A DNA stretch of 64,000 nucleotides. Origin: Pirellula sp. (GTDB taxonomy: Bacteria; Planctomycetota; Planctomycetia; Pirellulales; PNKZ01). Both the position numbers and the translations under genes were made by a program. Below the pieces are notes generated by a model. It searched no databases and was not told where the DNA came from. It worked only from the letters and a program-made list of their open reading frames with translations. This document shows positions 11,402 through 37,455 of this stretch, in pieces (positions within the stretch are counted from its first letter, which is position 1; each line of letters starts with the position of its first letter). Location of the stretch: assembly GCA_013822735.1 (NCBI GenBank), contig PNKZ01000004.1, positions 248,001 to 312,000 of the forward strand. Direction: 5' to 3'.

Positions 11402-11557
11402 CCATGGCGGCACTGGGTACCGCGCTTCCAAAAGCATAATCCCGCCATTTTTGAATTACGCCAATTCGCGCGCCCGCCACAGATCGCAAGCTGACACCGT
11501 CTCTTAGCAAGGGTACGATAAATCGCCTCGCCATTTCACCCAAATAGGTGCGTTACG

Positions 11558-12568
11558 ATGCGAGTGATCCTTCCTCGCTGTTGGAGTTGGGCGACTTTAT
11601 TAGCACTCGCTTTGCTTGGCGGAGCGACAGATTCATCCGCTCAGGAGCGACGCATTGTTCGTTCGCTGCCGCGCGACGATAAAGAAATCGCCGAGGCCTT
11701 TGCCGCTGCCGCCGGAAACGTTTGCCGCGCCGTGCGCGAAGGCCGCTCTTCGGAAGTTCACGATCTTTCGCCGCTCACCGCCGGTGATGCCGGACTGAAA
11801 GTAACGATGACGGTCGGCGGCCGCTCGCTGCCGATTCCCATGGCTCGCAAGACGGTGCTTTCCGTCGGAGTGGCCATTGCGCCTGACGATGTTGCGACGC
11901 TGCCGCTCATTAGCTCGTCGGCCATTCAACAATACCTCAACACGCACTATGTGTGCTTACAGGTGATGATCCGACGCGATTTGGACACCGGCTCGCTTTG
12001 CTTGCACGATACGGCGTCCGCGGCTTGCTTGCCTTGCGAAGGGTCGCTGCTCACCGAAGAATTTGAGCCGCTGGTGCGCGACTCGCTCCAAGATACGCGA
12101 TGCCTTGGTCTGTTTGTCGCGGCGGACGAGACTGACGACGCCGTCACGCCGGGAACGTTAGTGTTTGTCGTGCGCAATCCGTTCTACGACGAAAATGCGC
12201 CCGGCAAAACAAAACCCAGTTACGAGTTGCTCTTCGTGCGCGCGAAAACGAAGCGTTCGACGTTGGGCGACGAAGACTTGGAACTCCACGCATTTATGAC
12301 GGCCGAAGCGAGGAAGACTCTCAAGCGTCTTCCTCCCTATCAGGCGCCGGAATCCAATACTTCATGCGTGCTTTCGGGTACCGTTACCTTCCTAGGATAT
12401 GCTTCCGACGGACTCACGCCGGCGGCGTCGGCATTACGTACGCTGGAGGTGCGATCCACGACGGAAATGAAGGAAGAGCAGCTAAACGCTCTGGCCGCAA
12501 CGAAGAGCGGCAAACACCACTGGCTCGAACGACCAAGCGCCGTGCTTGATGCGATCATCGCAAAATAG
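11558..12568 (+). CDS. Secreted protein of unknown function
   Basis: The protein has 336 residues with a signal peptide at residues 1-28 (WATLLALALLGGATDSSAQ, cleavage around SSA-QE). The mature part contains five Cys in the middle section (TGSLCLHDTASAACLPCEGS and nearby), enough for disulfides or a metal site, but no known catalytic motif. A short convergent gap of 18 bases separates it from the acyltransferase gene at 12587, so the two belong to different transcripts. I do not recognise a family; the codon pattern and length leave little doubt that it is coding. Confidence 0.75.
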   Translation: MRVILPRCWSWATLLALALLGGATDSSAQERRIVRSLPRDDKEIAEAFAAAAGNVCRAVREGRSSEVHDLSPLTAGDAGLKVTMTVGGRSLPIPMARKTVLSVGVAIAPDDVATLPLISSSAIQQYLNTHYVCLQVMIRRDLDTGSLCLHDTASAACLPCEGSLLTEEFEPLVRDSLQDTRCLGLFVAADETDDAVTPGTLVFVVRNPFYDENAPGKTKPSYELLFVRAKTKRSTLGDEDLELHAFMTAEARKTLKRLPPYQAPESNTSCVLSGTVTFLGYASDGLTPAASALRTLEVRSTTEMKEEQLNALAATKSGKHHWLERPSAVLDAIIAK

Positions 12569-12586
12569 GCATGCGGGTCCGAAATT

Positions 12587-13984
12587 CTATTCGGCCCCCC
12601 GGCGTAATGCGTCGGCGAACAATTGCAGGATTCGTTGCACGTCAGAGTCGCTGTAGAGAGCCGGATCGCACTTGGCGTTGATGACGATTCTTCCGGCATA
12701 CGTGCCGATGCCGAAGCCGACGCGCGTGAGCGGCCTAATAGGCGGACTTCCGGTAATGCTTTCCAAAACGACATTACCGATGACGCAACGCCCGTTTTGA
12801 CGCGGAAAGCGATGGGCGAAGCGTCGCGTCGGATCGCCCATGTTCGTCAATACGGCAGTCGCCATGCAGCGCCGCTTGCGCAATAGCCAAGGAAGCCAGG
12901 CGGAGCGTTCCAACATTTTCAACACGTGAAGAAAATCGAGTCCCGCGCCGGTGCGGCGAACGAATTGCGTTTCATCGCGAACCCCCTCAAGCAATCGCGC
13001 CGGATCGCGCAGTTCAGCTGCGCGCCGGGTGATGAAACCAAAAGTCATCCGATTGGCCGCCGGTAAGAGTTCGTCTCCGCGCAGTCGTAAGTCGATGGGC
13101 ATCAAGACGCGGAGCCGACCACGGCCGCCGCGTCCTTGCTCCGCGTTCCACGCGTTGACGGCCTGCAGCACGGCGACGATCGCGGCATCGTTCAACGTGC
13201 CGGACTTGTCGGAGGCCGCCGTGCGAATGGCCGTCGACTCTTCAAGCGAAAAGAAGCGGCTGAACACCCCTGGGAAAGAACAATCTTCTCGAGAGTCTTC
13301 GGAATTCTTGCGTTCCACCAGCGGGCGAGGAGCCAGGCAATGGAACTTGAGCGCGTCGAATACTTGGTGCCGCACCGACCGCGGATGCCGGGCCGCGAGT
13401 TGGATCTGCCCGGCGTAGTCGCCCCGAGTTTTTAGGCGCGCCAGTTCGACGGGCCGTACATCCGGCAACGCGGCGTCTTGCGAGGTCGCCGCCGCATATT
13501 GGGTCAGCACGTCTTCGATGAAACGCATTGCCCCCTGACCATCGCAGCAGGCATGATGAAACTGCCAAACCAAATACGACGCGGCGGAGCCGCTACGAAC
13601 CCAAATTCGAACGCCCGGCCGTTTGGTAACGTCTAACTTCGTTTCATCATCGGCTCTTATCGACGTGTCGAAACAACCCCAATCGGGCAGCAACCGAAAA
13701 TCTTCGACCGGCAACCAACGCAGCGTACCCTCATCGTCCGCGTCGACGCGCGCGCGTAACAGCGGATGATATCGCAATGACGCATGGAGCGCCTCTTCGA
13801 ACTCCTTGCGTCGCAACTCGCCGGTAAAGCGCAGCTCTCCGTAGAACGCCATGGGGAAGCCGGGGCGATCGTCCAGCACCATGAACCGTTCAAACGGCGT
13901 CAGCGGCAGCGGCCATAGGCTCGCTTCGTCAAAGCCGCAGGCCGTCGGATTTAGGTCGGATTCCACAATCGATCGAGACATCAC
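12587..13984 (-). CDS. HHxxxDG acyltransferase (condensation / WS-DGAT / PapA superfamily)
   Basis: The protein has 465 residues of the CoA-dependent acyltransferase fold. The catalytic motif HHACCDG is at residues 143-149 with both His, Asp and Gly in place. The second structural region has a sequence typical of alcohol O-acetyltransferase and NRPS condensation-like proteins (RLRVLMPIDLRLRGDELLPA; NRMTFGFI). It ends without a carrier domain. Such enzymes move an acyl group from a thioester onto a hydroxyl or amine. It lies 24 bases downstream of the FabL-like gene and is last in the lipid cluster, so esterification of the alcohol or acyl product made by the upstream synthase and reductase is the likely job. 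The acceptor cannot be read from the sequence. Confidence 0.82.
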   Translation of the reverse strand: MMSRSIVESDLNPTACGFDEASLWPLPLTPFERFMVLDDRPGFPMAFYGELRFTGELRRKEFEEALHASLRYHPLLRARVDADDEGTLRWLPVEDFRLLPDWGCFDTSIRADDETKLDVTKRPGVRIWVRSGSAASYLVWQFHHACCDGQGAMRFIEDVLTQYAAATSQDAALPDVRPVELARLKTRGDYAGQIQLAARHPRSVRHQVFDALKFHCLAPRPLVERKNSEDSREDCSFPGVFSRFFSLEESTAIRTAASDKSGTLNDAAIVAVLQAVNAWNAEQGRGGRGRLRVLMPIDLRLRGDELLPAANRMTFGFITRRAAELRDPARLLEGVRDETQFVRRTGAGLDFLHVLKMLERSAWLPWLLRKRRCMATAVLTNMGDPTRRFAHRFPRQNGRCVIGNVVLESITGSPPIRPLTRVGFGIGTYAGRIVINAKCDPALYSDSDVQRILQLFADALRRGAE

Positions 13985-14008
13985 GCTATTCTCCGCAATA
14001 CCATCGCA

Positions 14009-14779
14009 TTACGGATGAATCCCTTCGCCGCCGTCCACCACGAGCGTTTGGCCCTGAACCAGATCGCTTAACGAACTTGAGAGGTATAACACGGCGTCCG
14101 CCACGTCGGCGGCCGTGAGCCGTCGCTCTCCCACCATGAGTTTGGCTTGGGCATGTTGAAACACGGCCTCGGCGTTCGGAACATTACGGGTCGAATCCGT
14201 ATCAACCAATCCGGCACGTACGACGTTGACGTTGATTCCCTGCTGACCATACTCCAGCGCCAGGTGTCGAACCAAACTCTCCAACGCCGCCTTCGACGCG
14301 CCGATCAGTCCGTAATGTGGCAGGGCAAACGTGGCCCCGTGGCTCGACAAAGCCGTGACCTTGGCGCGGCCTTCGGTGCGTCGCAAGAGCGGCGCCGCCT
14401 CCTGCATCAATGTCACTAGCGCTCGCACGTTGGCATTCATCGTCGCGGCAAAGTGATTGGGAGTACTTTTCTCCAGAGATCGAAAGCCGCCGGTGGCCGC
14501 ATTACTGACGAGCACGTCCAATTGTCGAAATTGCTTGCCGACGAAATCGAGCATCAGCCGCACATCGTCCGGTTCGCTGACATCGGCTTTGACGATCGCC
14601 GACATCCGTCCAAGCGCACGGATTTGCTCCGCGACGTCGGTCGCCGCTTTCTCCGACGTCACAAAATTGACGATCACGTCGGCTCCGGCCTCGGCCAAGC
14701 GTAAAGCGCAGGCGCGTCCGATGCCCCGCGATCCGCCGGTAACCAGTGCGACCTTTCCGGCCAACGAAATCATGGACAC
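14009..14779 (-). CDS. fabL: FabL-like enoyl-ACP reductase (SDR family)
   Basis: This 256-residue short-chain dehydrogenase has the NADP-binding motif TGGSRGIG (residues 14-21) and SNAA near residue 92. The active-site Tyr and Lys are spaced as Tyr156-x6-Lys163, the spacing of enoyl-ACP reductases, rather than the YxxxK of ketoreductases. The sequence after the lysine (SKAALESLVRHLALEYGQQG, then GLVDTDSTRNVPNAE) and the ending VQGQTLVVDGG closely follow Bacillus-type FabL. The expected reaction is NADPH-dependent reduction of trans-2-enoyl-ACP. The adjacent megasynthase has KR and DH but no ER domain, so this stand-alone enzyme would supply the missing step. A generic SDR remains the fallback call. 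Confidence 0.8.
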   Translation of the reverse strand: MSMISLAGKVALVTGGSRGIGRACALRLAEAGADVIVNFVTSEKAATDVAEQIRALGRMSAIVKADVSEPDDVRLMLDFVGKQFRQLDVLVSNAATGGFRSLEKSTPNHFAATMNANVRALVTLMQEAAPLLRRTEGRAKVTALSSHGATFALPHYGLIGASKAALESLVRHLALEYGQQGINVNVVRAGLVDTDSTRNVPNAEAVFQHAQAKLMVGERRLTAADVADAVLYLSSSLSDLVQGQTLVVDGGEGIHP

Positions 14780-14944
14780 GCTCTAAAGAAAGTAACTATC
14801 GATCCCTGCGGGCACGAATCGGCGAGGCATTGGTCGCCCCGGTTTGCCGTCGATGCTCACCTGATTCCAGCATGCCTACCTACGGCGCGGCTTGCAAGCG
14901 GCGAGCCGGAGTCGTGCGAATCGGAGCGAAAAGTACGCTGCGAG

Positions 14945-17900
14945 CTACGCGCCGAGCCACACCACGCGATAGCCCTCGACATCGATCAAAATGTCGCCGT
15001 CGTCGCCGTAAAGCACAAAGTCGAACACGGCTTCCGTCGCGGTTTTCTCCCTACACTCGGCCCGCACCAAGCACGATTCCGCGGTGCGCGGAAGACGCCC
15101 CAACCGCACTGTCGCAAAGCTCTTCGGCAAGGCCGTGCCGGGACGAATGTTCTCCCATGCCCAAAGCCCTACGGCATAGAGGCAAGCGTCCAACACCGCC
15201 GACGGCACAATCCACTTCGCCCCTCGCTCCGCTCCGGCCAATACCTCGAGCGGCGGCGCGACGACTCGACCCCACGCGGCTTCGGAAGTCGACCAAAACA
15301 TCTGAAGACTTCGCAACGACGGACCAAGATAGAACCTTGCGGGTCGTTCGAGGTATTCGACGGGCCGACCTTCGCTCGCGGGCGGCACGGCAATGGTCGC
15401 ATCACGGCCCAAGGTCAATGTGCTTGCCTCCACGACGCCGCGCAAATACGTACGTCCGGCTTCCACAAGCTTTCCGTCACGCGTGCGCACATCGCTCTGT
15501 AAGGCGTACAGCGGCGGCTCGCCGTGATTCGATATCCGCTTCACGCAGGCCGCGCGCGAGCGATCATCGGCGAATTTCAAGCCCTGCAGCGCTTCCACAT
15601 TACGAAACACCGTCGGACGTACGCCTGAAATGGAGCGCGCGCCTTCCGCCAGAAGTTCCAGTCCGACGACAACCGGCAGCAGCGGGTGATCGTCGAGTCG
15701 ATGATCGAGCAGAAAGCGATCTTTCGTCGGATCGAGCGACGCTCGGAATTCGCCGTCGACCTCGCTCAAGTCGTGGTCGAGTCGATGATGTGCATCATCC
15801 GGCTGAAATTGGTTCCGATACGCGTCGGTCGTGATCATCACTTCCGCGTCAGGAAGTCCCGCTTCAAGTTCGTTGAGCAGATGTTCGACCCCTTCACGCG
15901 CGGGCATGAACACCATGTTTACCATTTCCAGAGCCAGCCGAGTTTCCGGCTTCGTCGCCATACCGACGTCGTCCCAAGCGTGCCAGTGGAAGGTGGCACT
16001 GCGGCAGTCCGGCCGGGCCTTGCGAAACCAGTCGATTTGCTTGGCCAGCATGTCGTTCGCGGCCGAATAGTCGGTATGACCGTTTGCACCGAAGCGCCCG
16101 CTAATGGAACCAAATCCGATAAAGTGCCGAAGCGGATCTTCGCGCGTCAGGTCCATCAGATGGGCCGCGCCGTCGTTCTTCGCCCGAAAACACTTTTCGA
16201 CGTTCGACATTTCCTTACGATCAAACCGCGAGTCTTTGCCGAAGCCTGCGCCATGCAGCACGCCTTCGATCGGTACGCCCCGGGCGCGGATCGCACAAAG
16301 CACTTCATGAAGGGATGCGCGATCGGCAACGTCGCAACTGTGGTACTCCGCGGCAATTCCTTCGGCGGCGAACTTTCGCAGCGTCTGCTCGATCTCGATC
16401 GCCTTCTCCACATCTTGCCACGTCTTTAAAGTCGGTTTGCCGGCCGCTTGCGCGTCGCGCATGACGCCGTTTCGCAATGCTTTGAGACCTGCTTCGGAGA
16501 GTTCGAGCCAGCCGGGATCGATGTTCGGTACCGGCGCGGTGCCGAGCAAATGCAAGCGAACGCCGTACTCCCGCGCCAATGTGCGCGCGACCAGTGCGGT
16601 AATCCCTCGAGCGCCGCCGGTGCAAACCCAAGCCGATCCCCGGCGCACGGCGTTTCTTTCGGTCGCTCTTGGCAACGGAGCACGGCGCGTACGCGCCACG
16701 CGGCGCAGGTCTCCCGTCCAACCAATCTCCATGTGGATGCTGGTTTCGGTCAGTTCACGCCGGAGCGCCGCGACCGCCTCGGTCGGCGTCGTCGATGCAG
16801 CAAGATCGAGTAAGCGAATCGTCGTTCGGCGTCGACCTTGCACCCAGTTCTCGATGCAAAGCGCCTTCAGCAATCCGGCGAGCGCCCCCCCTTCGACGGA
16901 GCCGACGTCGCCGGTGACGCCGAATTCGCCGCCTAGCTTCGTGAAGGCCACGACGACGGCGTCGTCCCACAATTGGGCATCGGTGACGTGCTTGGCCCAA
17001 CTTTGACACACTTGATACGGCACTTGCACGCCGCGGCGACGCCGGTCCGCATAATGCGCTGCGTCGAACGAAGTAGCCGCGTCTTCATCGCATGCGGTTG
17101 TTAAGAATAGGTACGGCGCCGGACCGCTCTTCCAAGCCGCGTCGATGCGCGCGAGAGTCGCCGTTATGTCGTTGTCGGCGAGTATCTCCACAACGGCGCC
17201 TGCAGACTCCAAGTACGACCGCAACGCTTCCGCAAACGCGTTGTGGCCTAGAATCAAAGCCCGCCCCGCGAACACGCGCTCAGGAGAACCTGCGCCCAGC
17301 AGCGGTCTCTCGACCATTTGCAGAACGTAGCGCGACGTCACGGACTTCTCGTTTCGATGCATGGAAGGCGCCGGCGAAGGCGTCGGCTCTTCCGCTCGAT
17401 CTGTGTGCGCTATGCTCGGGCTCACACCCGTCGCGGGAGCCGCAAATCGCTCACGCGGCAGGTGGACTACGGCGTGTAACGCAAGGCTCGCCGGGCTCAT
17501 CACCATGCCGACCTGATTGTCTACACGATATACCGTGTTCATCGTCGGATGCGACGTGGCCATTTGACGAGCGGCGTCGTAGCGATCTCGCAGAATCCGC
17601 TCGGCAACTTCGACATCGATCGGCCGCGTTTCCGCAGCGAGCATTTGGGTCAGCCGCGACAAGCGATGTTTGGAATGTTCCGGTACTTCGGGGCCGGGCG
17701 CGGCGATGAGGCTGTGATTCGCGGACGCGACGCGCGGCATCCCTTGGCGGACTTCCAACAATTCGCCGTCGTATTCGACGTAGGCCAACCGATCGGCGCC
17801 CCGGTGACCGAGGCACATGCTCCACGATCCCATCCGCGGAAACTCGCGAATGATCGACAGCGCTTCATTCAGGTCGCCGGCCCGCGCCAGCACATGTTTT

Positions 17901-20900
17901 ACGAGCGTCGAATGCGTGTGCGTCGGCGTTTTACCCAAAATGTCGCCGGAAATGCGAAGGGGGCGCTCCAAAAGCTTCGTACTGGTTACGGACAAACCGG
18001 CGGAGTTGAGGCCGTTGATGCCGGCTGTTTGGCCGACGACAGTAAATGTCGCGAACTCACGACCTTCTCCTGCGCGTCGGATTTGCACGATACCGCGCAG
18101 GCAATCGCGCATGGTGAGCGTCCAAGGCGAGTCTTCGTTGGCGGCGTGAATGAGCGTGCCGTTCTCTTCGGCGGTCATCGCAAATTGAACGCAACCGGCA
18201 CCGCTGTCGAACGTCAGGGCGAGATTATGGGCCAACAGATTCGCGACGGCGACGCCCGCTCCGTCGGCGACCCCCTCCAACTCTTCCATTTCTTCCGCGC
18301 TATAAAACTGGCGCAGGCGATCGGGTCGCAGCAAGTCACGCGGCAATGGAATCTCGGGACCGCTGAGATCGACGTGGCGCCGGAGAATCTTGCGAATCTC
18401 GGTGCCGTGCCGGATGCCGTGTTCCCGCCCCATTTCGTAGGGCGTACCGGAAAGCAGCAACAGGGCCGCACCTCGGCAGTTCGCGCGAATTTGCGATTCC
18501 CAGACGTCGCTGCCCGAAGTCGTTGCCGCCGGTATTGCTGCGGCGACGGCCGGACCACGTGCATCGCCGGCTTCGGAGACGGCGCTCATCACCGGCACGG
18601 TCGCGACGTTCACCGGCGTGGGCGCGGCGTTCACTTCGGCAAAGCGATTCAGGATGTGTCGCAGCGTCGGAAAGTCGATCGGCTTGAACGATGCGGCATC
18701 GGACGATGAGAAGTGCTCTCGCAATTCGCCGAGGATCTGCGCCTTCTTAATGCTGTCGATTCCGAGATCGGCTTCCAGATCCGCATCGAGATCGACGACC
18801 TCGATCGGATAACCGGTCTGCTCAACGACGAAGTTCACAAGAAAGCGTTGCAGCTTCTCGTACGTTTCATTCTGCGGTGTATCGAGCGACGCGGGAATCG
18901 TCGCAGTCCCGCTATCGGTCGTTGCCGATTCGTTAGTCGCGGGGCTCAACCATTCGTTCTTCCCCTGTCCGCGACTCAGCAGGCGCTCGACATGCCGAAG
19001 CGTCGGGAACTCACTGAGACGCAACTCTTCGCGCGGCGGCAACTCAAAGAATTCGCGCAACTCGCCGAACAGTTGGGCCTTCTTGATGCTATCGATTCCC
19101 AAATCGGCTTCGAGATCAGCGTCTAAGTCGACGATCTCCGGCGGATATCCCGTTTGTTCGACGACGAACGAAACGAGAAACGCCGCTAAATTCGGCTGCG
19201 AGCGGCGAGCGCCGGAATCTCTAGTCTCCTCCGGCTCGACGGTTGCGGGCACGACGGCATCCGGGGAAGCGTTCGGCTGCCGCGATTCATTCCGTGCCGC
19301 AATCGGCTCGGCGAGTTTGGAAGTCGCGGCGTCACGCGCACGCCGGCGACGGTCGGCCGTCGCGTCGAACGCGACCACGGGCGCCGCTTCCGCAGTTAGA
19401 GCAGGCCGGCCGGCGGCAAGGCCCGGACGAGGCACGGACGTGACGGCATTAATAATGACCGATTCGGCGGAACTTGTACCGCGCATCTGCCGATGGAGTT
19501 CTGCCGCTCGATCAAGCTGCGCCGTCGACGATTGCGATCGATCGTCGCAAGCAATCGACTCCACGGGTAATCCCGTAAGGATCTGTCTGTGCAGATTCGT
19601 CAAAACCGAATTCGGGCCAACTTCGATGATGAGTCGGGCCCCTTCGCGCTGGAGACGCTGTACAAGTTCGACGTAGCGAAGCGGCTGTGTCAGCTGTCGC
19701 GCGAGGTTTTCCCGGATCTCGTCCGGCTCGGTAACAAATCGATTGGTAACCCCGCTTAACACGGGCACCACGGGGGGACGAATCGGGGCGTTTTGCAACG
19801 CCTTTTTGAATGCGGACGCGGCCCCCTTCAGCATCGGCGAATGAAACGGCCGCGGCACGTCGATCGTGCGACAATCGTATCCGCTATTCTTAAGTACTTC
19901 GGCAAATTGCTGAACCGTCCGTTGCTCGCCGGCGAGTACCGTTTGCTGCGGCGCGTTGTGGTGCGTGAAATACAATTCGACGCGTTGGCTCGCAATCAAC
20001 GGCTGCAGTTCCATCGGCGACGCCGATACCGCCAACATGGCGCTCGCCGGACAGTGGCAATCGAGCACCGCCTCGCTGCGCCGCAACGTTAACTCGATCG
20101 CCTGCTTGAGCGTCCAGCAACCGGCCGCAGTCAGGGCGGCAATTTCGCCGTAGCTATGTCCGGCCGCCCAATCGTAACGAACGCCGCGTGCCGTTAAGGC
20201 GCGATCGTACGCCAAGTCCGCAATGAGCATTGCCAATTGCGTGAGCCGCACATCGGTGCCCAGACCCGTTGCGTCGCCCCAGGCGAATTGCCCGAACGAG
20301 GGGAGCCCGAAGCACGCCAGATTTTCGTCGGCCTCCTTCAAAAACGCGCCGACCACCGGATCTGCCGACGCCAGGGCCTTGACCATTCCGGGGTATTGAG
20401 CGGCTTGGCCGGCAAAAACACCGACGACTCGTCCGCCCACGGCGGGCAACGTGCGAACGTGCGAAACGACGGGCGACGGCGAAGGAACGCGCGTCGGTAC
20501 TTCCGCAATCGCCGCGGGTTGCTTCGGAATGGGACGCGGATTTTCCATTACGAAATGATAACTTAAACCAACACAGGTTGCTGAAGTTAACGCCGCGGCA
20601 TCGGGAACGTTTTCTTCGGCATTAACACTTGACTGCTCAAACTCGAATGTCGTTTGAACGAGGTCAACTAGCCCGTGGGCCGCTTGGGTATGACCGATAA
20701 GTTCAACGGGGGACGGCAATTGCAGCGTTCGCGCGTGGGGATATGCGCCGTCGAGGCCTGCGTTGAGCGCGCCGTCCAACTTCGCAAGACCGTAGGCGAC
20801 CGGACGCAGCGTCGCATCAAACGGGCTTTTCGCCGCACGCCGCGCGGCACTTGCAACGGCCGCTCGAGGATTGTTTTCCGCGAACGACACCCCGGCTTCG

Positions 20901-23230
20901 CGCAAAATTCCAAACACCCGGTTGCCGTCGCGTTGCGCGTCGCTCAAGCGTTTGAGAAACAACACGACGGTTCCTTCGCCGGGCACATGGCCTTCGCCGC
21001 GACGGGAGCCCGGAGCGGCAAGTCGGCCGGCAAGCGTCAATGTTTCGTAGGCCGGCAAGCCCATCGCCCGTTGCGCGCCGGCACAAAGCACGGCGTCGTT
21101 CTTACCGGTGAGCAATAGTTCGACGGCCAACGCTAGCGCAGCCGCGCCGGAACATTCTCCGGCATCGACGGCCAGCGCACCTCCCATAAGATCGAACGTC
21201 TTCGTCAACCGCGACGCCAGCGTACTGCTGGTGAAGCTGCCGGTTTCGTCGATGAGGGCCGGCATGTCGATGAGCAACCGCTCTTCGAATTCCGCGAAGA
21301 ACTCCCGAGTCGCGGCGGGCGAAACGCCGCATTGCGCAGCGGCCCTCTCTACGGCGCGGCGAATCTCAGGCAAGCGGAGCCCGACTTGCAACTGATTGCT
21401 GAAGTCGCCTCCGAAAATTGTGCCGATCACCACTCCCGTACGACTCCCGTCTGCCGGCGCCGCGGACTCGCGCGCTTCGTCCAAGGCTTGATCGGCCGCA
21501 TCGAGCAGCAGGAACTGCAACAGGTTCGCCGTTTCTAATTGCTTGGGCGGGATCTTGTGTCGGCGCCAATCGTACCGATATTCTCGCAAGAAGCCCCCGA
21601 GCGCATTGAGAATGCGCGGGCGACCGAAGTGATCGGCATCGAGTGCGAGGCGTGCGTTCCAGCGACTCCGAGGAGCCTCGGAACGAGCGTCGCGCTGCGA
21701 CCGACACAGCTCGCGAAATGCCTGAAGCGTGAACGCTCCGGGTAATACTGCGCCACGACCGACGATTGCCACGGCTTCGCCGCCGCCGCGTCGCACGCGC
21801 TGCGGCGCGGCGTACGCTCCCACGGCGTCGAACTCTTCCAACACGACATGCACGTTCAAGCCGCCGATTCCGAAGGCATTAACGGCGGCGCGACGCGGAA
21901 CTCCGGCGCGAGGCTCCGGCCACGACGTCGCGTTTCTCACGACTTCGAGTCGGGTGTTTGCCCAATCGACGTTGCGGTTCAGCTCGCCGACGTGGATGGA
22001 CGCGGGAATGACTCGATGCTTCATCGCGAGCACCGTCTTGAGCAGCCCGGCCAATCCGGCGGTCTCAAGCGTGTGGCCGATATTCGATTTCACGCTGCCG
22101 ATCGGAATGGGGCCTTTCGGCGGTCGATCCGCAAAGAACGCCGCCAGCGCGGAGATTTCCGTCGCATCGCCGACCTGAGTGCTCGTGGCGTGCATCTCCA
22201 CGTATTGAATCGTCGTCGGATCGACGGCGGCGTCGTAGGCTCTACGAACCGCTTCCAACTGCCCTTCTTTCCGCGGCGCCCAAAGACTTCGCCCGCGACC
22301 GTCGGAGGAGACGCCGATGCCGCGGATCACGGCGTGGATCGTATCACCGTCGGCTCGCGCTCGCGCCAAAGTCTTGACGGCCAGAACCACGTACCCCTCG
22401 GAGCCGATCAAGCCGTCGGCCGTGGCATCGAACGGACGCGAACCGGTCGCGCTACATGACTGCGCGTGCGAGAATAATACGAGACTATCGCTTTTGTTGT
22501 ACGAAGCGCCGCAGACGAGCGCGGCGTCGATTCGGTCATTTTCCAGTGCCGCGGACGCCGCCTGGAGTGCCACGAGCGATGAGGCGCACGCCGCGTCGAT
22601 GACGTACTGCGGACCATCGAGCCCGAAGGCTCGAGCAAGCAGCGACGCCGCGGCGTTGGCTTGCAAGCTCAGCCCGCCGTCGGCACGAACGGAACGCGAT
22701 GCAAGGAGGTCGCGAATCGATTCTTCGCGCACTTGCTCGCGCTGCGCGGCGGTCAATTCACCGAAGGCCTTGGTGTTATCGAGGCGACCGACGATGTCGG
22801 CGACCATCGATCCCATGGAAGCTTCGCCTCCGGCGGAACTGCCGCCGGAATGCCCGACGTACACACCGATGTTCCGCGTCGCGAGCGATTTCGGGTCGTA
22901 GCCGGCATGCGCTATGGCACGCGCCGCGGTCTCGCATAAAATCAGATGACACGGATCGGCGGCCTCGCGCATTTCGGCCGGCAAGCTTCGCACGAACTCG
23001 TCGAGCGGCCGATCGGCGATCATCCCGCCGAGCGTCGAGTAAGTCTTGCCGCGTCGGCCGCGTGTCGACGAATAATACAGCTCACGGTCCAAACGATCGG
23101 CGGGGAATTCGCCGACCGCGTCGCCGCCAGAGCGAAGCAGCGACCAGAAATCGTCGAGACCGTCGCCGCCCGGTAGGCGACAGGCCATTCCTATGATCGC
23201 CAGCGGCGTGTGGCCGGAGGTCGTCGACAC
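14945..23230 (-). CDS. PUFA-synthase-like type I polyketide / secondary lipid megasynthase with embedded C45 domain
   Basis: The protein has 2761 residues with a GTG start that overlaps the upstream stop (TAGTG). Domain order by residue: KS 8-470 (Cys215 in DAACASS, His347, His386 in NIGH); CLF-like KS 485-900 (Cys replaced by Glu692 in DAGECSG, first His lost); AT 935-1225 (GHSYGE, Ser1026; His1130); ACP1 1345-1420 and ACP2 1458-1530, each with LGIDSIKK (Ser1381, Ser1493); a C45 / penicillin acyltransferase-like Ntn hydrolase 1590-1930 (Cys1680 in GAGCVQF, then NEDSP); pseudo-KR 1965-2185; KR 2198-2475 (CTGGARGI, Ser2375, Tyr2388, Asn2392); double hot-dog DH 2485-2761 (His2510, Asp2681). It builds an acyl chain iteratively in the cytoplasm. 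There is no ER and no ordinary thioesterase. The C45 domain may release, or split, the synthase. Confidence 0.93.
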   Translation of the reverse strand: MSTTSGHTPLAIIGMACRLPGGDGLDDFWSLLRSGGDAVGEFPADRLDRELYYSSTRGRRGKTYSTLGGMIADRPLDEFVRSLPAEMREAADPCHLILCETAARAIAHAGYDPKSLATRNIGVYVGHSGGSSAGGEASMGSMVADIVGRLDNTKAFGELTAAQREQVREESIRDLLASRSVRADGGLSLQANAAASLLARAFGLDGPQYVIDAACASSLVALQAASAALENDRIDAALVCGASYNKSDSLVLFSHAQSCSATGSRPFDATADGLIGSEGYVVLAVKTLARARADGDTIHAVIRGIGVSSDGRGRSLWAPRKEGQLEAVRRAYDAAVDPTTIQYVEMHATSTQVGDATEISALAAFFADRPPKGPIPIGSVKSNIGHTLETAGLAGLLKTVLAMKHRVIPASIHVGELNRNVDWANTRLEVVRNATSWPEPRAGVPRRAAVNAFGIGGLNVHVVLEEFDAVGAYAAPQRVRRGGGEAVAIVGRGAVLPGAFTLQAFRELCRSQRDARSEAPRSRWNARLALDADHFGRPRILNALGGFLREYRYDWRRHKIPPKQLETANLLQFLLLDAADQALDEARESAAPADGSRTGVVIGTIFGGDFSNQLQVGLRLPEIRRAVERAAAQCGVSPAATREFFAEFEERLLIDMPALIDETGSFTSSTLASRLTKTFDLMGGALAVDAGECSGAAALALAVELLLTGKNDAVLCAGAQRAMGLPAYETLTLAGRLAAPGSRRGEGHVPGEGTVVLFLKRLSDAQRDGNRVFGILREAGVSFAENNPRAAVASAARRAAKSPFDATLRPVAYGLAKLDGALNAGLDGAYPHARTLQLPSPVELIGHTQAAHGLVDLVQTTFEFEQSSVNAEENVPDAAALTSATCVGLSYHFVMENPRPIPKQPAAIAEVPTRVPSPSPVVSHVRTLPAVGGRVVGVFAGQAAQYPGMVKALASADPVVGAFLKEADENLACFGLPSFGQFAWGDATGLGTDVRLTQLAMLIADLAYDRALTARGVRYDWAAGHSYGEIAALTAAGCWTLKQAIELTLRRSEAVLDCHCPASAMLAVSASPMELQPLIASQRVELYFTHHNAPQQTVLAGEQRTVQQFAEVLKNSGYDCRTIDVPRPFHSPMLKGAASAFKKALQNAPIRPPVVPVLSGVTNRFVTEPDEIRENLARQLTQPLRYVELVQRLQREGARLIIEVGPNSVLTNLHRQILTGLPVESIACDDRSQSSTAQLDRAAELHRQMRGTSSAESVIINAVTSVPRPGLAAGRPALTAEAAPVVAFDATADRRRRARDAATSKLAEPIAARNESRQPNASPDAVVPATVEPEETRDSGARRSQPNLAAFLVSFVVEQTGYPPEIVDLDADLEADLGIDSIKKAQLFGELREFFELPPREELRLSEFPTLRHVERLLSRGQGKNEWLSPATNESATTDSGTATIPASLDTPQNETYEKLQRFLVNFVVEQTGYPIEVVDLDADLEADLGIDSIKKAQILGELREHFSSSDAASFKPIDFPTLRHILNRFAEVNAAPTPVNVATVPVMSAVSEAGDARGPAVAAAIPAATTSGSDVWESQIRANCRGAALLLLSGTPYEMGREHGIRHGTEIRKILRRHVDLSGPEIPLPRDLLRPDRLRQFYSAEEMEELEGVADGAGVAVANLLAHNLALTFDSGAGCVQFAMTAEENGTLIHAANEDSPWTLTMRDCLRGIVQIRRAGEGREFATFTVVGQTAGINGLNSAGLSVTSTKLLERPLRISGDILGKTPTHTHSTLVKHVLARAGDLNEALSIIREFPRMGSWSMCLGHRGADRLAYVEYDGELLEVRQGMPRVASANHSLIAAPGPEVPEHSKHRLSRLTQMLAAETRPIDVEVAERILRDRYDAARQMATSHPTMNTVYRVDNQVGMVMSPASLALHAVVHLPRERFAAPATGVSPSIAHTDRAEEPTPSPAPSMHRNEKSVTSRYVLQMVERPLLGAGSPERVFAGRALILGHNAFAEALRSYLESAGAVVEILADNDITATLARIDAAWKSGPAPYLFLTTACDEDAATSFDAAHYADRRRRGVQVPYQVCQSWAKHVTDAQLWDDAVVVAFTKLGGEFGVTGDVGSVEGGALAGLLKALCIENWVQGRRRTTIRLLDLAASTTPTEAVAALRRELTETSIHMEIGWTGDLRRVARTRRAPLPRATERNAVRRGSAWVCTGGARGITALVARTLAREYGVRLHLLGTAPVPNIDPGWLELSEAGLKALRNGVMRDAQAAGKPTLKTWQDVEKAIEIEQTLRKFAAEGIAAEYHSCDVADRASLHEVLCAIRARGVPIEGVLHGAGFGKDSRFDRKEMSNVEKCFRAKNDGAAHLMDLTREDPLRHFIGFGSISGRFGANGHTDYSAANDMLAKQIDWFRKARPDCRSATFHWHAWDDVGMATKPETRLALEMVNMVFMPAREGVEHLLNELEAGLPDAEVMITTDAYRNQFQPDDAHHRLDHDLSEVDGEFRASLDPTKDRFLLDHRLDDHPLLPVVVGLELLAEGARSISGVRPTVFRNVEALQGLKFADDRSRAACVKRISNHGEPPLYALQSDVRTRDGKLVEAGRTYLRGVVEASTLTLGRDATIAVPPASEGRPVEYLERPARFYLGPSLRSLQMFWSTSEAAWGRVVAPPLEVLAGAERGAKWIVPSAVLDACLYAVGLWAWENIRPGTALPKSFATVRLGRLPRTAESCLVRAECREKTATEAVFDFVLYGDDGDILIDVEGYRVVWLGA

Positions 23231-24970: not shown

Positions 24971-26590
24971 GTGATTCTAAGCATAATACCCAGAAAGCAT
25001 CCTAATTTACTTGTAAATCAATATCCGTCCCCTGCCGGAGTTCAATGCACACCAAACCGGCATCCCCGCGTTAGTGAAATCTTCGCAAATATTTCGATGC
25101 GAGGCAGGGCACTTAACGCAGCGCCCGTACTCCGGGTCCCACTTGCGAACGGTCCTCCTGTCCAGAATACTCCAAAGCAGACTTTCGGCGCGGTTCACCT
25201 TCAACGAGCGATGCGGGCAATGGTTTGGTCGTTATTCGTATTACCATTGGCCGGATTTCTCTATTGGCGATGGAAGGTCGCCGGCCCCTCAATTGCGATC
25301 GGCGAATCGATACTCTGGAGCCTGCTGGTACCGTCATGGATCACTCTTCCCATCGCCGGCCTACCGTTTGACGTAACCTCGACCGTCGCATGCCTCGGCC
25401 TAATCCTCTATTGCTTCCATCCGGCTGCATTGTTCCGCACTACGCTTTGCCTTACGGACGGTGCGGTGTTTGCGATGTTCTGCGTTCACATCCTTTCCGA
25501 TTCGCTCAACGAAGGCTTTCACATCGGAATTCCGTGCCGAGCCTACGGTGAATGGATTGTCCCCTATTTGGCCGGACGCATATCGGTTCGCGACGCCGCG
25601 GACGTTCGCACGCTTCGATCGACGGCCTGCGTAGTCGCGATCATCCTGGGAATCTGGTCGGCGACGGAAGCAATTTGGGGACACAACCCAGTTAACATGG
25701 TGGCGGGAGTACGACCGATCGACGACATGCCGCTCAATCAATTGCGCTGGAACTTCAAGCGGGCCGAGGGACCCACGACGCATCCGATTTGGCTAGGCAT
25801 GGTTCAAGCGCTATTGTTGCCTTGGACATTGTCGGCGGCGATTTCCGCAATGACTTTCAAGTCCAAGCGCTGGCGACTGTCGGCTCCAATTTGCAATCTA
25901 GCGGGCGTGTTTTTTAGCCTCTCGCGCGGACCTTGGTGCCTCGTGTTGCTAACGCTCTACGGAACCGCCGTTTGCCGACTTACTCGATTTCGCAAATTGC
26001 TAATTTTTCTCGGAGCAACCGCCTGCCTTGGCGCCGCGATATCTCCGGCGTCAGTCGTCGAGGTTCTTCAATCGCTAACTTCGCACGATCGGCCCGACAC
26101 CAACACGGTCACAGTCGACAAACAACGGGTCAAATTGGACGAGACAACCTATCGCATCGTCCTCTTTGACGTGTATCGCGAAGCGATGCTACGAGCGGGC
26201 CTACTCGGATTCGGCACGGACCGCACAACCGGCTTTCCGGTACGGGTACCTATGGGCGTTCTCGACGTCGATGCCATGAAGAAAGTTCAGTCGATCGACA
26301 ACGCGTATATTCTAATGCAATTACGCTTTGGTTTGCTGGGCGTCATTTCATTGTTAGTAATTCTTAGCTCGGCCGCGCTAATATCGTTGCGACGAGGAGC
26401 CCAAGAAAGGTCTCGGCTGGGTGTATTTCACGCGCTAACCGGATCGACATTGCTTTCGCTAATCGTCGTTTTGGCGGCGGAATACATTCCCCGCGACTAC
26501 GGATTTCTACTTTTTTGGACGATCGGCATCACCGCAGGCTTTGATGCTTATCACTCTAAGCCGGTCCCTGCAACCACCGGTCGATTTTAG
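24971..26590 (+). CDS. O-antigen ligase / polymerase-like membrane protein
   Basis: The frame has 539 codons from a GTG at 24971, but the first 80 residues are basic and poorly ordered. The real start may be ATG at 25097 or 25211, the latter just before the first membrane helix (MVWSLFVLPLAGFLYW). About ten hydrophobic segments follow. A large loop contains EGPTTHPIWLG and SLSRGPW, the loop style of the Wzy/WaaL (O-antigen ligase domain) family. It joins or polymerises undecaprenol-linked glycans on the outer face of the inner membrane. It opens the exopolysaccharide locus and diverges from the lipid cluster across a 157-bp spacer. A second polymerase-like gene lies at 35959. Confidence 0.78.
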   Translation: MILSIIPRKHPNLLVNQYPSPAGVQCTPNRHPRVSEIFANISMRGRALNAAPVLRVPLANGPPVQNTPKQTFGAVHLQRAMRAMVWSLFVLPLAGFLYWRWKVAGPSIAIGESILWSLLVPSWITLPIAGLPFDVTSTVACLGLILYCFHPAALFRTTLCLTDGAVFAMFCVHILSDSLNEGFHIGIPCRAYGEWIVPYLAGRISVRDAADVRTLRSTACVVAIILGIWSATEAIWGHNPVNMVAGVRPIDDMPLNQLRWNFKRAEGPTTHPIWLGMVQALLLPWTLSAAISAMTFKSKRWRLSAPICNLAGVFFSLSRGPWCLVLLTLYGTAVCRLTRFRKLLIFLGATACLGAAISPASVVEVLQSLTSHDRPDTNTVTVDKQRVKLDETTYRIVLFDVYREAMLRAGLLGFGTDRTTGFPVRVPMGVLDVDAMKKVQSIDNAYILMQLRFGLLGVISLLVILSSAALISLRRGAQERSRLGVFHALTGSTLLSLIVVLAAEYIPRDYGFLLFWTIGITAGFDAYHSKPVPATTGRF

Positions 26591-27221
26591 TTCATTTCGT
26601 CCCGAGCACCTTGACGGGGAATATCCCCATAGTCAAATGCGATGCGGAAGTGATGAATTGGCTGCGCCCGAGCCGCAGGAATTGGAATACCGAAACCGCA
26701 GGCTGCGACCTAAAGCCGATTAGGATGCGATTTGAAAGAGCTACCTAACGGCAGTCGCCCTTTCGACCCCCTGGCGTAATCGCGAATATTTCAGGCTTTT
26801 TCGCGAAGCAGGCCTACGGTCATCTGCGATCTAGCGAATCGAGTCGCCCGTTCGGCAAGTCAATGACAAATCAGTTTCGCCGCCGCGTTCTTAATGGCGA
26901 CGTGGCGTTCTTCGAACGAACGGCTTACGGATATCGAACACGTTTTTTCCGTTCGCGTAAGCGCCATTGTTAAAAAACAATAAATCCACCTTAATTCGTC
27001 TATTTGTATCCACTGCACTGCCTTTATTGGTGGCAGTGGATGCGATACATCACCGCATTTCCGAGCAAAATTGGCACTTTAACTCAAGTCCCGTTGACTG
27101 GTCCGGTTTTTGCATCGGGAACGAACCAGTTGTTTCTTTCGTCGCGCCGATTAGATTCTGTTCGTACGCTTCTCACAATTAACGCCCGCTATCCTCTCGC
27201 ATATCCCAAGGCACAGTGACA
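26591..27221. other. 631-base spacer upstream of the BY-kinase gene
   Basis: No supported gene. The stretch at about 26,890-26,975 is rich in partial inverted repeats: AATGGCG near 26,893 pairs with CGCCATT near 26,963, and GGCTTACG pairs with CGTAAGC between them. It ends in TTGTTAAAAAACAA. This could be a long leader or a promoter region for the polysaccharide genes. Confidence 0.4.
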
Positions 27222-29669
27222 ATGAGCACCCCTGCCAAACGCGCTCCCGGAACTGATTCCCAAGCATCGGCGAAATCAGCGCACAGTTCGATAATGCCGG
27301 CGGACGGCGCGCAGGTATTTGTGATGCTCCGACGTCGCTGGGCGAGTATTGTGATCGGTCTTCTGATCGGTTGGGGCCTAGGGGCGACATATTTTTTCTT
27401 AGCCCCGATGAAGTATGAATCGGCGGCTCAGATTTTGGTCATGCAAAAGGACCAGAGCTTGGCGAGCACCGGCGACTCGCCGGATCAGAGGCAAACGGAA
27501 GTTAACGAAGACGTACTTTCGACTCACATGCAGATTTTGCAAAGTCGTGAAATCGTCGGAGCGGCGCTCAAGAGCAGCCGCCTCGGCGAGTTGCCTTCCA
27601 TCGTAGATAAACTGGGGAAAGACGAGTCGCCGACGACGTTTATTATCGATCGCATGACCGTGACGCGCGGCGGCACGGGCCAAGCGCGGCTCGCACACGT
27701 TTTGAACGTCTCGTTGAAGCATTCGTCGGAAGAAGAAGCGAAGATCATTCTGGAAGCAATCATCGCCAGCTACAAAAAGTTTCTGAATGACAAGTTTCAG
27801 GACGTCAGCCAAGAAGCCGCATCGTTGATCGCCCAGGCCAAAGTGAGTCTCTCGGAAGACTTGAAGATTGCCGAGGCCAATTACAGAGATTTTCGTGAGA
27901 GTTCACCGCTGCTTTGGAAGGGTGGACAGAACACGATGGAAAGCGCAAACGTCTTTCGTGTCCAATACGAAGAATTGAACGCGGCACTTTCACTTTCGCG
28001 AATGGCGTCTTCCAAGGCGAAGGCGCGACTCGCCGTCGTCGAACAGGCGATCCTCAATCAGGAAGAACGCGGCGCATCGGAATTTGAGCGTCTCGCACTG
28101 TTGGATCAAAGCGACTTTCAACGACTTGAGATGCTAATCGGCGTCGGCAAGGGGGACGCGAATAGTGCGGAGTTTCAAGCGTCGCAACCTCAACGCCTTG
28201 AGATGGCGCGCGCCGAACATCAATCGCTGTTGGAAATGTTGCTGGAACGCGAGTCGCACGTAGCCGATCTTGGACCCGACCATCCGGTTATGCAGCAACT
28301 GGAAACTCAGATCGCAGCTGCGCAGAAATATCTCAAATCCCAATCCGCGCAACTGGGCGAAGTGGAAAAGAAGGCAAAAGTCACCCCCACCACGATCGTG
28401 AACGCGTACAGGGAGCTTCTTCGTCAGGATGTCGCGACTTTGGAGCGGCAACAGGAGGAACTCACGAAAGCGGCCAATGCGGCACAAGAATCCGCGAAGT
28501 CTCTCGTCGTGTTTGAATTGAAGGGTGAAGCACTTCGCAAGGAAATCGAACGTCAGCAAGCCCTTTATGACACAGTAATTGAACGCCTTCGCGAGATTAA
28601 CCTCGTCAAGGATTACGGCGGTTTCGTAACGGAGGTAATCGCCCCGGCGGAAATCGGCGAGAAGGTTTCTCCTAACGGTCTTATGGCGTTACTCGGCGGA
28701 TCGTTTTTTGGCTTGGTGATCGGCGGTGCCATGGCGATTGCCGCGGAGACTCGCGATCGGTCGTTCCACGACGTCCATTCGCTCAAGAACGCCACGGGAT
28801 TGCCCGTCCTGTCGGCGATCCCGCTGCTTTCGCTTGAGGACTTGGATGAAGACGTCCAAGAACGTGTCGTCGAATCGCAGCGGTCGTTTTGCCTTACTTC
28901 CTATTTCCGTCCGAAGTCGCGCGAATCCGAAATGTTTCGTGGACTACGAACGACGTTGTTCTTTGCACGCAGCGGCGCTTCCAGCCAAATTGTGGCATGC
29001 AGCAGTCCGACCGCCGGCGACGGAAAGTCGACCGTTATCTCCAATCTTGCGATCAGCATCGCGCAAGCCGGGAGACGCGTACTACTCGTCGATTGCGATT
29101 TGCGTCGTCCGCGAATTCACGAGATTTTTAACCTTTCGAACCAAACGGGACTTTCTTCCGTCATTGGCGACTCTTTAGATCCGCCGGACGCAATTCAGGC
29201 GATGGACGTTGAGAACCTGTTCATCATGCCTTCAGGTCCCATCCCGCCGAACCCTGCGGAGCTCTTATCGTCGGAAGCTTTTACGAATCTCCTCTCATAC
29301 TCGCGCGAACAGTACGACTACATCTTGCTGGATTGTCCGCCCGTCTTGGCGGTGACCGATCCTCGAATCGTGGCGCCGAAAGCGGACTCCGTCGTGATGG
29401 TGGTGCGGCTTGAGAATAATAGCCGGCCGCAGGTGGTCCGAGCGGTTGAAATGATTCAAGAATGCTCCGACAAGGTCTTGGGCATCGTGCTGAACGGAAT
29501 CTCCGACGGCACCCCCGGCGGCTACGACAGTTATGGATACGGGTACGGATACGGATATGGTTACGGCGGATACGCTGCCGATCGCAACGCGAGCTACTAC
29601 GAAGACACTACGGCTACCGCGACCAGAAAGCGAACTCGCAGCAGCGCTCGGCCGAGTGCCGAACGCTAA
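27222..29669 (+). CDS. wzc: Polysaccharide co-polymerase / bacterial tyrosine kinase (Wzc, BY-kinase)
   Basis: The protein has 815 residues from ATG at 27222 (a GTG two codons earlier is equally possible). A Wzz domain with a first membrane helix sits at about residues 43-65. A long coiled-coil periplasmic section (about 180-440) follows, then a second membrane helix near 490-510 (LMALLGGSFFGLVIGGAMAI). The cytoplasmic kinase has Walker A in SSPTAGDGKST (Lys602), Walker A' VLLVDCDLRRP and Walker B YDYILLDCPPV. The tail is a tyrosine cluster with alternating Tyr and Gly followed by more Tyr, the autophosphorylation region. The family controls chain length and export together with a Wza-type channel, here the product of 43742-45079. 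Confidence 0.95.
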   Translation: MSTPAKRAPGTDSQASAKSAHSSIMPADGAQVFVMLRRRWASIVIGLLIGWGLGATYFFLAPMKYESAAQILVMQKDQSLASTGDSPDQRQTEVNEDVLSTHMQILQSREIVGAALKSSRLGELPSIVDKLGKDESPTTFIIDRMTVTRGGTGQARLAHVLNVSLKHSSEEEAKIILEAIIASYKKFLNDKFQDVSQEAASLIAQAKVSLSEDLKIAEANYRDFRESSPLLWKGGQNTMESANVFRVQYEELNAALSLSRMASSKAKARLAVVEQAILNQEERGASEFERLALLDQSDFQRLEMLIGVGKGDANSAEFQASQPQRLEMARAEHQSLLEMLLERESHVADLGPDHPVMQQLETQIAAAQKYLKSQSAQLGEVEKKAKVTPTTIVNAYRELLRQDVATLERQQEELTKAANAAQESAKSLVVFELKGEALRKEIERQQALYDTVIERLREINLVKDYGGFVTEVIAPAEIGEKVSPNGLMALLGGSFFGLVIGGAMAIAAETRDRSFHDVHSLKNATGLPVLSAIPLLSLEDLDEDVQERVVESQRSFCLTSYFRPKSRESEMFRGLRTTLFFARSGASSQIVACSSPTAGDGKSTVISNLAISIAQAGRRVLLVDCDLRRPRIHEIFNLSNQTGLSSVIGDSLDPPDAIQAMDVENLFIMPSGPIPPNPAELLSSEAFTNLLSYSREQYDYILLDCPPVLAVTDPRIVAPKADSVVMVVRLENNSRPQVVRAVEMIQECSDKVLGIVLNGISDGTPGGYDSYGYGYGYGYGYGGYAADRNASYYEDTTATATRKRTRSSARPSAER

Positions 29670-29809
29670 TTCGGCGCCCCGGGGTGTTGTCGTTATTGGC
29701 TCATTCGCGTGATTCAATAACCTCGCATCGCCGAGCCCCATGCAAGACTGTGTACGTTGCTTGGCAAACAGCGGCACAGCGTTAGTTCGAAAGTGAGGAT
29801 TCTCCCGAA

Positions 29810-31354: not shown

Positions 31355-31484
31355 CTCCGAAGGAATCAAACCCGGCACTCGTGTTGGAATGCGTACCGCG
31401 GCTTGCAACGTAGCACGTCGTGAGGCGTGTGCGTCGGCATCGTGGTTCCTTGTTAGTAATTTGCTCTGAGCTAAGGGTTGTTGC

Positions 31485-32828: not shown

Positions 32829-32953
32829 TGGGCAACAACTCCGTCGGTACCGTTCTCGATTTACGAGTTCGATGCGTACCGAGGCAAAGCGAGATCCGGT
32901 CTGCTCCGCGCACCGGTTCGAACGTTCGGCGAATGAATAGTTAGGAAGTTGCC

Positions 32954-37368: not shown

Positions 37369-37455
37369 CCTCCGGGACTTTCCTAAACCGCTTAAACGCC
37401 CCGCCGTGATCGAACAATTACGCACACATCTCATTCCACAAATCCGCAATACTAT

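Follow-up and report, generated by a model that had tools for sequence, protein, structure and literature searches.

A C45-type N-terminal nucleophile hydrolase domain with intact active-site residues within a PUFA-synthase-like protein of Pirellula sp.

Background

Thioesterase and other release domains acting in cis within fatty acid and polyketide synthases are placed after an acyl carrier protein (ACP), and the thioesterases among them are alpha/beta or hotdog hydrolases. A domain in the same position, for which a role in chain release is likewise proposed, but which by sequence and predicted structure is an N-terminal nucleophile (Ntn) hydrolase of peptidase family C45, was found in a megasynthase of Pirellula sp. 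The synthase is encoded in a stretch of 64,000 nucleotides (assembly GCA_013822735.1, contig PNKZ01000004.1, positions 248,001 to 312,000 of the forward strand), hereafter the window.

Acid ceramidase and NAAA are animal lipid amidases and Ntn cysteine hydrolases that share the fold of this domain and act on fatty-acyl substrates, but they are not known to be linked to carrier proteins. The acyl-CoA:isopenicillin N acyltransferase of Penicillium chrysogenum (AAT, also IAT; structures 2x1c, 2x1d and 2x1e), a member of family C45, has the same fold, a Gly-Cys junction and an aligned Asp and Asn. However, AAT works on coenzyme A thioesters, whereas the window domain lies mid-chain in a synthase beside ACPs. 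The available portions of PMC2692852 describe AAT as a separate enzyme with a 40-kDa precursor, which cuts itself at Gly102-Cys103.

The synthase itself resembles the PfaA-type polyunsaturated fatty acid (PUFA) and secondary lipid synthases, iterative lipid synthases with ketosynthase (KS), chain length factor (CLF), acyltransferase (AT), tandem ACPs, ketoreductase (KR) and dehydratase (DH), as given in the accessible part of Shulse and Allen 2011 (PMC3098273). The words 'peptidase', 'C45' and 'penicillin' occur neither in the available text of that secondary lipid synthase paper nor in that of a hybrid lipid cluster paper. Both halves, the C45 hydrolase and the PUFA-like synthase, are of known kinds; a description of their fusion was found in no open-licence paper searched, a body of literature outside which most subscription papers and all preprints fall.

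Results

Sequence membership and active site of the C45 domain

Judged by sequence and by its predicted structure, the window domain is a member of the C45-family (AAT-type) Ntn cysteine hydrolase/acyltransferase fold with intact active-site residues. When excised, it matched the NCBIfam model NF040521 (C45 family autoproteolytic acyltransferase/hydrolase) with 134.7 bits against a cut-off of 85 (E 4.4e-39, model positions 3-311 of 313) and the Pfam model PF03417 (AAT) with 36.0 bits against a cut-off of 23.2. Within the whole genome, PF03417 was matched at E <= 0.001 by this synthase domain only. The stretches YEMGREHG, GAGCVQFAM, NEDSP, GLNSAGLSVTS and ANHSL are all present in the synthase. 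A first-pass annotation of this DNA, made from the sequence without database searches, had placed a C45/AAT pattern at residues 1590-1930, with Cys1680 of GAGCVQFAM as catalytic residue and the domain between the tandem ACPs and the KR. These assignments hold, as both models score above their curated cut-offs and the family match spans residues 1594-1916, the residue number of Cys1680 agrees with its codon (Table 1), and Pfam together with local profiles gives the same domain order. The interval 17411-18445 proposed there translates to residues 1596-1940.

A profile built from 24 embedded or derived domains found AAT in the PDB (3.8e-17), and paired the Gly-Cys of AAT, the Asp of its QNWD and the Asn of its TNH with Gly1679-Cys1680, Asp1700 and Asn1838, residues being counted by hand. 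Searching the PDB by phmmer with the single domain gave designed pentatricopeptide repeat proteins (E 2e-7 to 7e-7) and a weak short-chain dehydrogenase/reductase (SDR; 0.99). These were rejected as sums of weak repeats and as a low score, respectively, AAT having come up in the profile search.

Predicted fold

An AlphaFold2 model was made with the window domain aligned to 23 relatives from named records, and has a mean pLDDT of 86.6 and a pTM of 0.88. Foldseek placed P. chrysogenum AAT at the top (E 2.7e-18), with acid ceramidase and NAAA next. With VIA-align 2 the model superposed on the AAT precursor 2x1c_B with Z 34.0 and an rmsd of 2.6 A over 310 residues, on acid ceramidase 5u81 with Z 32.0 and on NAAA 6dxw with Z 31.1, while identity to AAT in structural alignments was 16-19%. 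In the alignments to many mature chains, among them those of penicillin V acylase, NAAA and acid ceramidase, the superposed stretch starts with the N-terminal residue of the mature enzyme set against residue 105 of the model (Cys1680); the nucleophiles of acid ceramidase and NAAA are thereby superposed on Cys1680.

Domain layout of the synthase and its gene neighbourhood

Features of the synthase and the adjoining genes are collected in Table 1. Against TIGR02813, the model of PfaA-type PUFA synthases, the synthase scored 684.8 bits and did not reach the cut-off of 1010.1, so it is called PUFA-synthase-like only. It does have the PfaA-type trait of two ACPs in tandem, between AT and KR. No thioesterase family was matched in the 2761-aa protein (Pfam, E 0.001).

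Table 1. Position and basis of assignment of the synthase, its domains and neighbouring genes in the window
Feature	Coordinates	Strand	Basis and remarks
PUFA-synthase-like megasynthase, iterative type I, KS-CLF-AT-ACP-ACP-C45-KR-DH	14945..23230	(-)	2761 aa; Pfam and local profiles
Ketosynthase (KS)	21821..23215	(-)	PF00109/PF02801
Chain-length-factor-like (CLF), second KS-like region	20471..21775	(-)	ketoacyl-synt in 2 stretches; boundaries hand-set; name CLF is an interpretation
Acyltransferase (AT)	19535..20434	(-)	PF00698, 105.4 bits
ACP 1	18980..19177	(-)	PF00550, residues 1352-1417
ACP 2	18611..18880	(-)	second PF00550 stretch; DLGIDSI at residue 1488; boundaries hand-set
C45/AAT-type Ntn-hydrolase domain	17483..18451	(-)	NF040521 over residues 1594-1916, 133.1 bits in whole protein, cut-off 85
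Codon TGC of predicted nucleophile Cys1680	18191..18193	(-)	preceded by GGT (Gly1679); predicted cleavage Gly1679/Cys1680
Structural half of ketoreductase (KRs)	16661..17260	(-)	adjoins catalytic half in most complete synthases compared; boundaries hand-set; name is an interpretation
Catalytic ketoreductase (KR)	15911..16645	(-)	PF08659, 101 bits, residues 2201-2420
Dehydratase (DH)	14957..15820	(-)	PF14765 35.9 bits (cut-off 23.7); PF21089 24.4 bits, under its cut-off 27
Thioester-reductase-type SDR (NAD_binding_4), 527 aa	23230..24813	(-)	PF07993 163.5 bits; TIGR01746 127.4 bits, under cut-off 213.35
FabL-like enoyl-ACP-reductase-type SDR, 256 aa	14009..14779	(-)	PF13561 190.6 bits; FabL model NF005975 255.4 bits, under cut-off 328; Tyr-x6-Lys
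Condensation/WS-DGAT-like acyltransferase, 465 aa	12587..13984	(-)	PF00668 31.5 bits (cut-off 30.6); TIGR02946 33 bits, under cut-off 309.95

The thioester reductase gene lies upstream of the synthase, and its stop codon overlaps the synthase start by 1 base (TAGTG). Downstream are the genes of the FabL-like SDR, whose Tyr-x6-Lys has the spacing of enoyl-ACP reductases, and of the WS-DGAT-like acyltransferase. In a genome of the same genus (G003), relatives of the reductase, synthase, SDR and acyltransferase recur together with a relative (2e-72) of a further gene of the window, which encodes a 336-aa protein without Pfam match (11558-12568, plus strand) and has the same divergent position beside the cluster in both genomes. 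An exopolysaccharide-type cluster adjoins on the other side (24971-40730, plus strand), encoding a Wzy-like protein (below cut-off), a Wzz/tyrosine kinase, a sugar transferase, a UDP-sugar dehydrogenase, a flippase-like protein, glycosyltransferases, an acyltransferase 3 and an FkbM methyltransferase. No amino-lipid gene was seen adjoining the window synthase in the Pfam/NCBIfam annotation of its neighbours.

Occurrence in other genomes

The C45-bearing synthase is not a one-off, but a feature found across the lineage. Among 57 genomes searched, that of the window included, 23 gave a domain match, and in 8 of these (again with the window's genome) the match lay within an open frame of 2787-3956 aa. 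Wider surveys scored around 4-5 candidates per genome, so domains may have been missed, and gave matches in 166 of 396 genomes across the order, in 270 of 397 across the class and, at E 1e-30, in 18 of 392 drawn from the phylum. Many of the matches in the order and most in the class were stand-alone proteins, and the 10 phylum matches outside the class were in open frames of 374-804 aa only. The order and class surveys yielded further synthases, spread over several families of that order and also present in f22, a family of the same class that falls outside the order.

A scan of named genomes added 24 loci, from Planctomycetaceae and Planctomyces metagenome-assembled genomes (MAGs), a Blastopirellula MAG, a Thermoguttaceae MAG, Stieleria and Rhodopirellula strains, strain TBK1r and others, and in 23 of them the domain lies in an open frame of at least 1412 aa (L148, with 522 aa, is stand-alone). 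The 24 include contigs labelled Acidobacteria (L146), Deltaproteobacteria (L154) and 'bacterium' (L135, L144, L149). Because its open frame has an equal length of 1718 aa, L135 is probably the class genome G428, which leaves four contigs outside or unplaced, and MAG labels may be wrong. An initial contig scan with a single synthase protein had returned 42 pattern matches, among which no relative was confirmed. The search for further synthases suggested in the first-pass annotation yielded C45-bearing ones in the window's order, in f22 and on the four contigs labelled otherwise or unplaced. In the L141 synthase the Pfam AAT model gave no match at E 0.01, and the C45 call there comes from a custom profile.

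In the C45 tree, a branch with SH-aLRT 99 separates 19 rows, namely L101 (981 aa) and 18 stand-alone C45 proteins, from the embedded domains and a small number of derived stand-alone copies. This topology would be compatible with one fusion event; the tree was built quickly, and the positions of its long, eroded rows are uncertain. For many Cys-bearing synthases, the region between AT and C45 gave no ACP match (L069, L070, L073-L078, L083, L084, L088-L094, L096 and others). ACP-like domains are on separate proteins at L069, L070, L073, L074, L075, L076, L077 and L091, where C45 follows the AT directly.

Retention and loss of the nucleophile

The nucleophile position was tabulated in 76 synthase loci, chosen by hand and not at random, with near-copies (L073/L076/L087 and L184/L185) counted separately. 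Duplicates (L133, L140, L142, L150, L153, L155), stand-alone, split or otherwise fused loci (L101-L112, L148, L180) and short search stretches (L001-L021, L029-L058, L113-L132, L157-L175) are omitted from the table. Cys is present in 44 loci and another residue in 28, with 4 unreadable; at least three events account for the losses. The complete signature of eight residues (Cys, Asn, Asp, Asn, Ser, Arg, Arg, Asp) is found in 42 of the 44 Cys-bearing loci, the others being L087, which is cut by a contig end, and L183, in which one Arg is replaced by Gln. Five loci (L145, L176-L179) have lost only the Cys, to Gly, while in the remaining 23 the signature is further broken or could not be aligned. 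The first-pass annotation had named absence of the Cys from close homologues as a result that would speak against its proposal. In the same-genus homologue L022, with a domain 49% identical, the Cys and the seven other signature residues are kept; losses occur farther away, in the 28 loci above.

On a quick KS and AT tree of 62 rows, from which the C45 columns were excluded, the Cys state must change at least 4 times, and well-supported branches require three of these changes. With the tree drawn from its midpoint and no root inferred, the domains at the deepest splits are all intact, which speaks for an active ancestor.

The alpha and beta halves, before and after the predicted cleavage site, were compared by mean pairwise identity, with gaps counted as differences. 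They are similarly conserved in Cys-bearing loci (31.1 and 34.8%; 84.7 and 83.4% among five loci of the Stieleria group). In the main lost clade, for which 16 of the 28 lost loci were chosen, alpha has 50.5% and beta 26.1%, with 75.1 and 43.5% in the nine of these from f15. Beta has drifted there while alpha was kept, so the beta half seems to be held by catalysis and to drift after older losses. The alpha half, by its conservation, probably has an additional structural or docking role, and the GTPYEMGxxHG front is conserved in many Cys-less loci.

Gly precedes the Cys in 42 of the 44 Cys-bearing loci. The spacing from the HN motif to the Cys is usually 10 residues, rising to 23-48 in 13 of these 44, and is at most 12 in lost loci. 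Such inserts before the Cys would fit what a cleaved proenzyme tolerates; a surface loop would fit as well.

C45 genes outside the synthase

Four genomes (G168, G339, G347, G387) have a separate C45 gene of 347-394 aa with intact motifs, and each also encodes a KS-CLF protein whose C-terminal portion retains an eroded C45 remnant. In G347 (locus L104) the C45 gene (5749-6813) and the KS-CLF protein with the remnant (11500-15411) are around 5 kb apart, with a 4HBT thioesterase-like gene and an FkbM methyltransferase as neighbours. Genome G419, whose own synthase (L179) has Gly in place of the Cys, encodes a stand-alone protein of 497 aa (L180:9330-10820), in which an ACP-like stretch (E 8e-7) is followed by C45 with intact motifs. 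The carrier serine position of this stretch is altered, with DGC in place of DSI. A GH3 gene is nearby, and the surroundings include arginine-biosynthesis-type genes. The placement of these separate copies in the tree is partly weak. A separate C45 with intact motifs in the same genome as an eroded or Cys-less domain suggests, on the sequence evidence, that the chemistry itself is wanted.

Exit-enzyme partners

The synthase core is accompanied by an exit enzyme of one of three kinds, namely a thioester reductase (the case in the window), a GH3 ligase or an alpha-oxoamine synthase (AOS). For each kind, neighbours were sought by similarity to a single example (E 1e-6); absences are therefore soft, and weak matches may be other reductases. 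At L075, L077 and L100 the reductase matches (2.5e-37, 1.9e-29 and 2e-12) are on frames cut by the locus edge. Among judgeable loci, a relative of the thioester reductase is found at 14 of 26 Cys-bearing loci, the window included, and at 22 of 23 lost loci (the exception being L182); if both flanks must reach at least 3 kb, 9 of 21 Cys-bearing loci have it. The 12 Cys-bearing loci without reductase comprise five with AOS, four with GH3 and three (L146, L154, L183) with neither.

A GH3 ligase gene stands beside eight synthase loci (L134, L135, L137, L139, L141, L147, L184, L185), downstream of the synthase, and in family f22 wherever the genome is known. The Cys is intact in all 7 that can be read, L147 being cut before that position. 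No thioester reductase was seen with any of the eight, four of which (L135, L137, L139, L147) have no upstream flank. The one GH3 protein tested, that of L184, had OlsH as its sole NCBIfam match, with 116.7 bits against a cut-off of 620. Planctomycete OlsH is itself a GH3 enzyme; according to PMC12493201, its substrates are free fatty acid and ATP and its product is N-acyl-ornithine. Since OlsH uses a free fatty acid, a GH3 partner implies a hydrolytic exit. Thioesterase families gave no match in L141 and L184, both GH3-type synthases, in the AOS-type synthase L156 or among six annotated neighbours of L184, of which one belongs to the DJ-1/PfpI family.

In Stieleria and relatives, a partner protein with the order ACP-AOS-ACP lies beside the C45 synthase (L151:2-3946, L074:17049-19979). 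The models nearest to the AOS are bioF and serine palmitoyltransferase, both below cut-offs, and the composition of the partner points to a sphingoid-like amino-ketone lipid. A connection with stieleriacines was sought as well; the knock-out study names the N-acyl amino acid synthase NasY1, and its text contains neither 'polyketide' nor 'C45'. At L146, on a contig labelled Acidobacteria, a class III aminotransferase gene (L146:16039-17496) adjoins the C45 synthase.

Discussion

Our preferred interpretation, toward which we lean by a modest degree on sequence and model, is that the domain is a working, self-activating cysteine hydrolase or acyltransferase, acting in cis on acyl-ACP in a releasing or clearing role. 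As in its family, the folded chain would be cut by the domain at Gly1679-Cys1680, giving KS-CLF-AT-ACP-ACP-alpha of around 180 kDa and beta-KR-DH of around 118 kDa (both estimates), which the Ntn sandwich would hold together. From a neighbouring ACP, the acyl chain would move onto the new N-terminal Cys1680, forming a thioester, with the assistance of Asp1700 and Asn1838, if the alignment to AAT Cys103, Asp and Asn is followed. Resolution of the acyl-enzyme by water, or less likely by an amine, would then offload chains or clear stalled ones. In the window cluster the adjacent thioester reductase may provide a second, reductive exit, and the trans enoyl reductase would complete the cycle. Given that reductase, we put less weight on the C45 domain being the main exit in this cluster than on its being a working enzyme. 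The first-pass annotation had suggested that the domain could hydrolyse or transfer the completed chain instead of a thioesterase, which may be so, the reductase offering another exit; it mentioned neither the self-cleavage to be expected from the family nor the spread of the domain across the lineage.

Several observations weigh against this interpretation. The thioester reductase offers an alternative exit in the window, where hydrolytic release is not required, and 28 of the 76 loci have no nucleophile and have retained the synthase. L146, L154 and L183 have the Cys and full flanks, and lack all three exit enzymes. Because the alignments used to select the signature residues overlap with the table, completeness of the signature in Cys-bearing rows is partly circular, and it is the comparison with lost loci that carries the information. 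In the four loci with Gly in place of Cys that were compared, alpha and beta are still alike (53.3 and 49.6%), and drift does not follow immediately after every loss; all 13 inserts before the Cys belong to one family (f17). Lastly, the reductase is associated with Cys loss on raw loci (Fisher p 0.001 where a reductase was found or both flanks are at least 3 kb, and 0.0002 where both flanks are required to be at least 3 kb). Independent pairs number only 2 on the C45 tree and 3-4 on the KS and AT tree, without statistical support, so dependence of the loss on the reductase is not claimed and the association is suggestive only.

Rather than hydrolysing it, the domain could pass the acyl chain from the Cys to an amine, such as an amino acid, a polyamine or a sphingoid-type base, and thereby make an N-acyl lipid as AAT makes its amide. 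We regard such amide formation as unlikely, in spite of AAT being the nearest fold, with acid ceramidase (which can run in reverse, forming an amide) and NAAA next, and in spite of the amino-lipid-type genes beside several synthases, namely the GH3 ligases with one nearest to OlsH, the AOS between two ACPs and the class III aminotransferase of L146. The GH3 ligase would itself make an amide from the free acid, rendering a second amide-former superfluous there, and the window synthase has no such gene seen next to it. An editing function is decidedly doubtful. Here the domain would be the in-cis counterpart of a type II thioesterase, removing aberrant or stalled acyl groups and leaving release of the product to the thioester reductase. 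This would agree with the reductase as the obvious exit in the window, with a relative at 14 Cys-bearing loci, and lineages with a reductase could afford to lose C45; but it leaves the GH3 operons unexplained, as no other hydrolase was recognised in two of those synthases and the neighbours of one.

Both readings retain acyl chemistry, which the domain could also do without. Self-cleavage might be its main function, in which case C45 would serve maturation, nicking the synthase so that it can assemble. AAT does process itself, and the conserved alpha half of the main lost clade indicates that part of the domain is probably structural or for docking. This explanation is very improbable nonetheless, because residues common to acyl-processing enzymes, such as Asn1838, are kept, and because C45 genes with intact motifs exist outside synthases (L104, L110-L112, L180), where nicking a synthase would be pointless. 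Finally, the domain in the window may be a vestigial scaffold, an inactive folded spacer of the sort it appears to be in Cys-less lineages: in 28 of the tabulated loci the domain, or what is left of it, persists although the nucleophile is gone, in many of them with the conserved GTPYEMGxxHG front. With the active site complete, all eight signature residues being present in the window and in the congener at 49% domain identity, and with beta having drifted in the main lost clade, we consider this scarcely credible for the window and rank it last.

Extended from the window to the lineage, the interpretation as a working cysteine hydrolase would run as follows. A built-in, self-cutting Ntn cysteine hydrolase would use its new N-terminal Cys to offload free acid or amide to interchangeable partners, and the active site would have been lost repeatedly, in lineages in which release passed to a thioester reductase. 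We put this forward tentatively, as a possibility that falls somewhat short of an even call.

If the domain is active, an Ntn release or editing domain would be added to the toolbox of fatty acid and polyketide synthases, and a megasynthase would be expected to split itself for activation. GH3 ligases and AOS in related clusters tie PUFA-like synthases to amino-lipid-type genes. The intact, Cys-to-Gly, eroded and re-separated versions of the domain form a natural series that makes its role directly testable.

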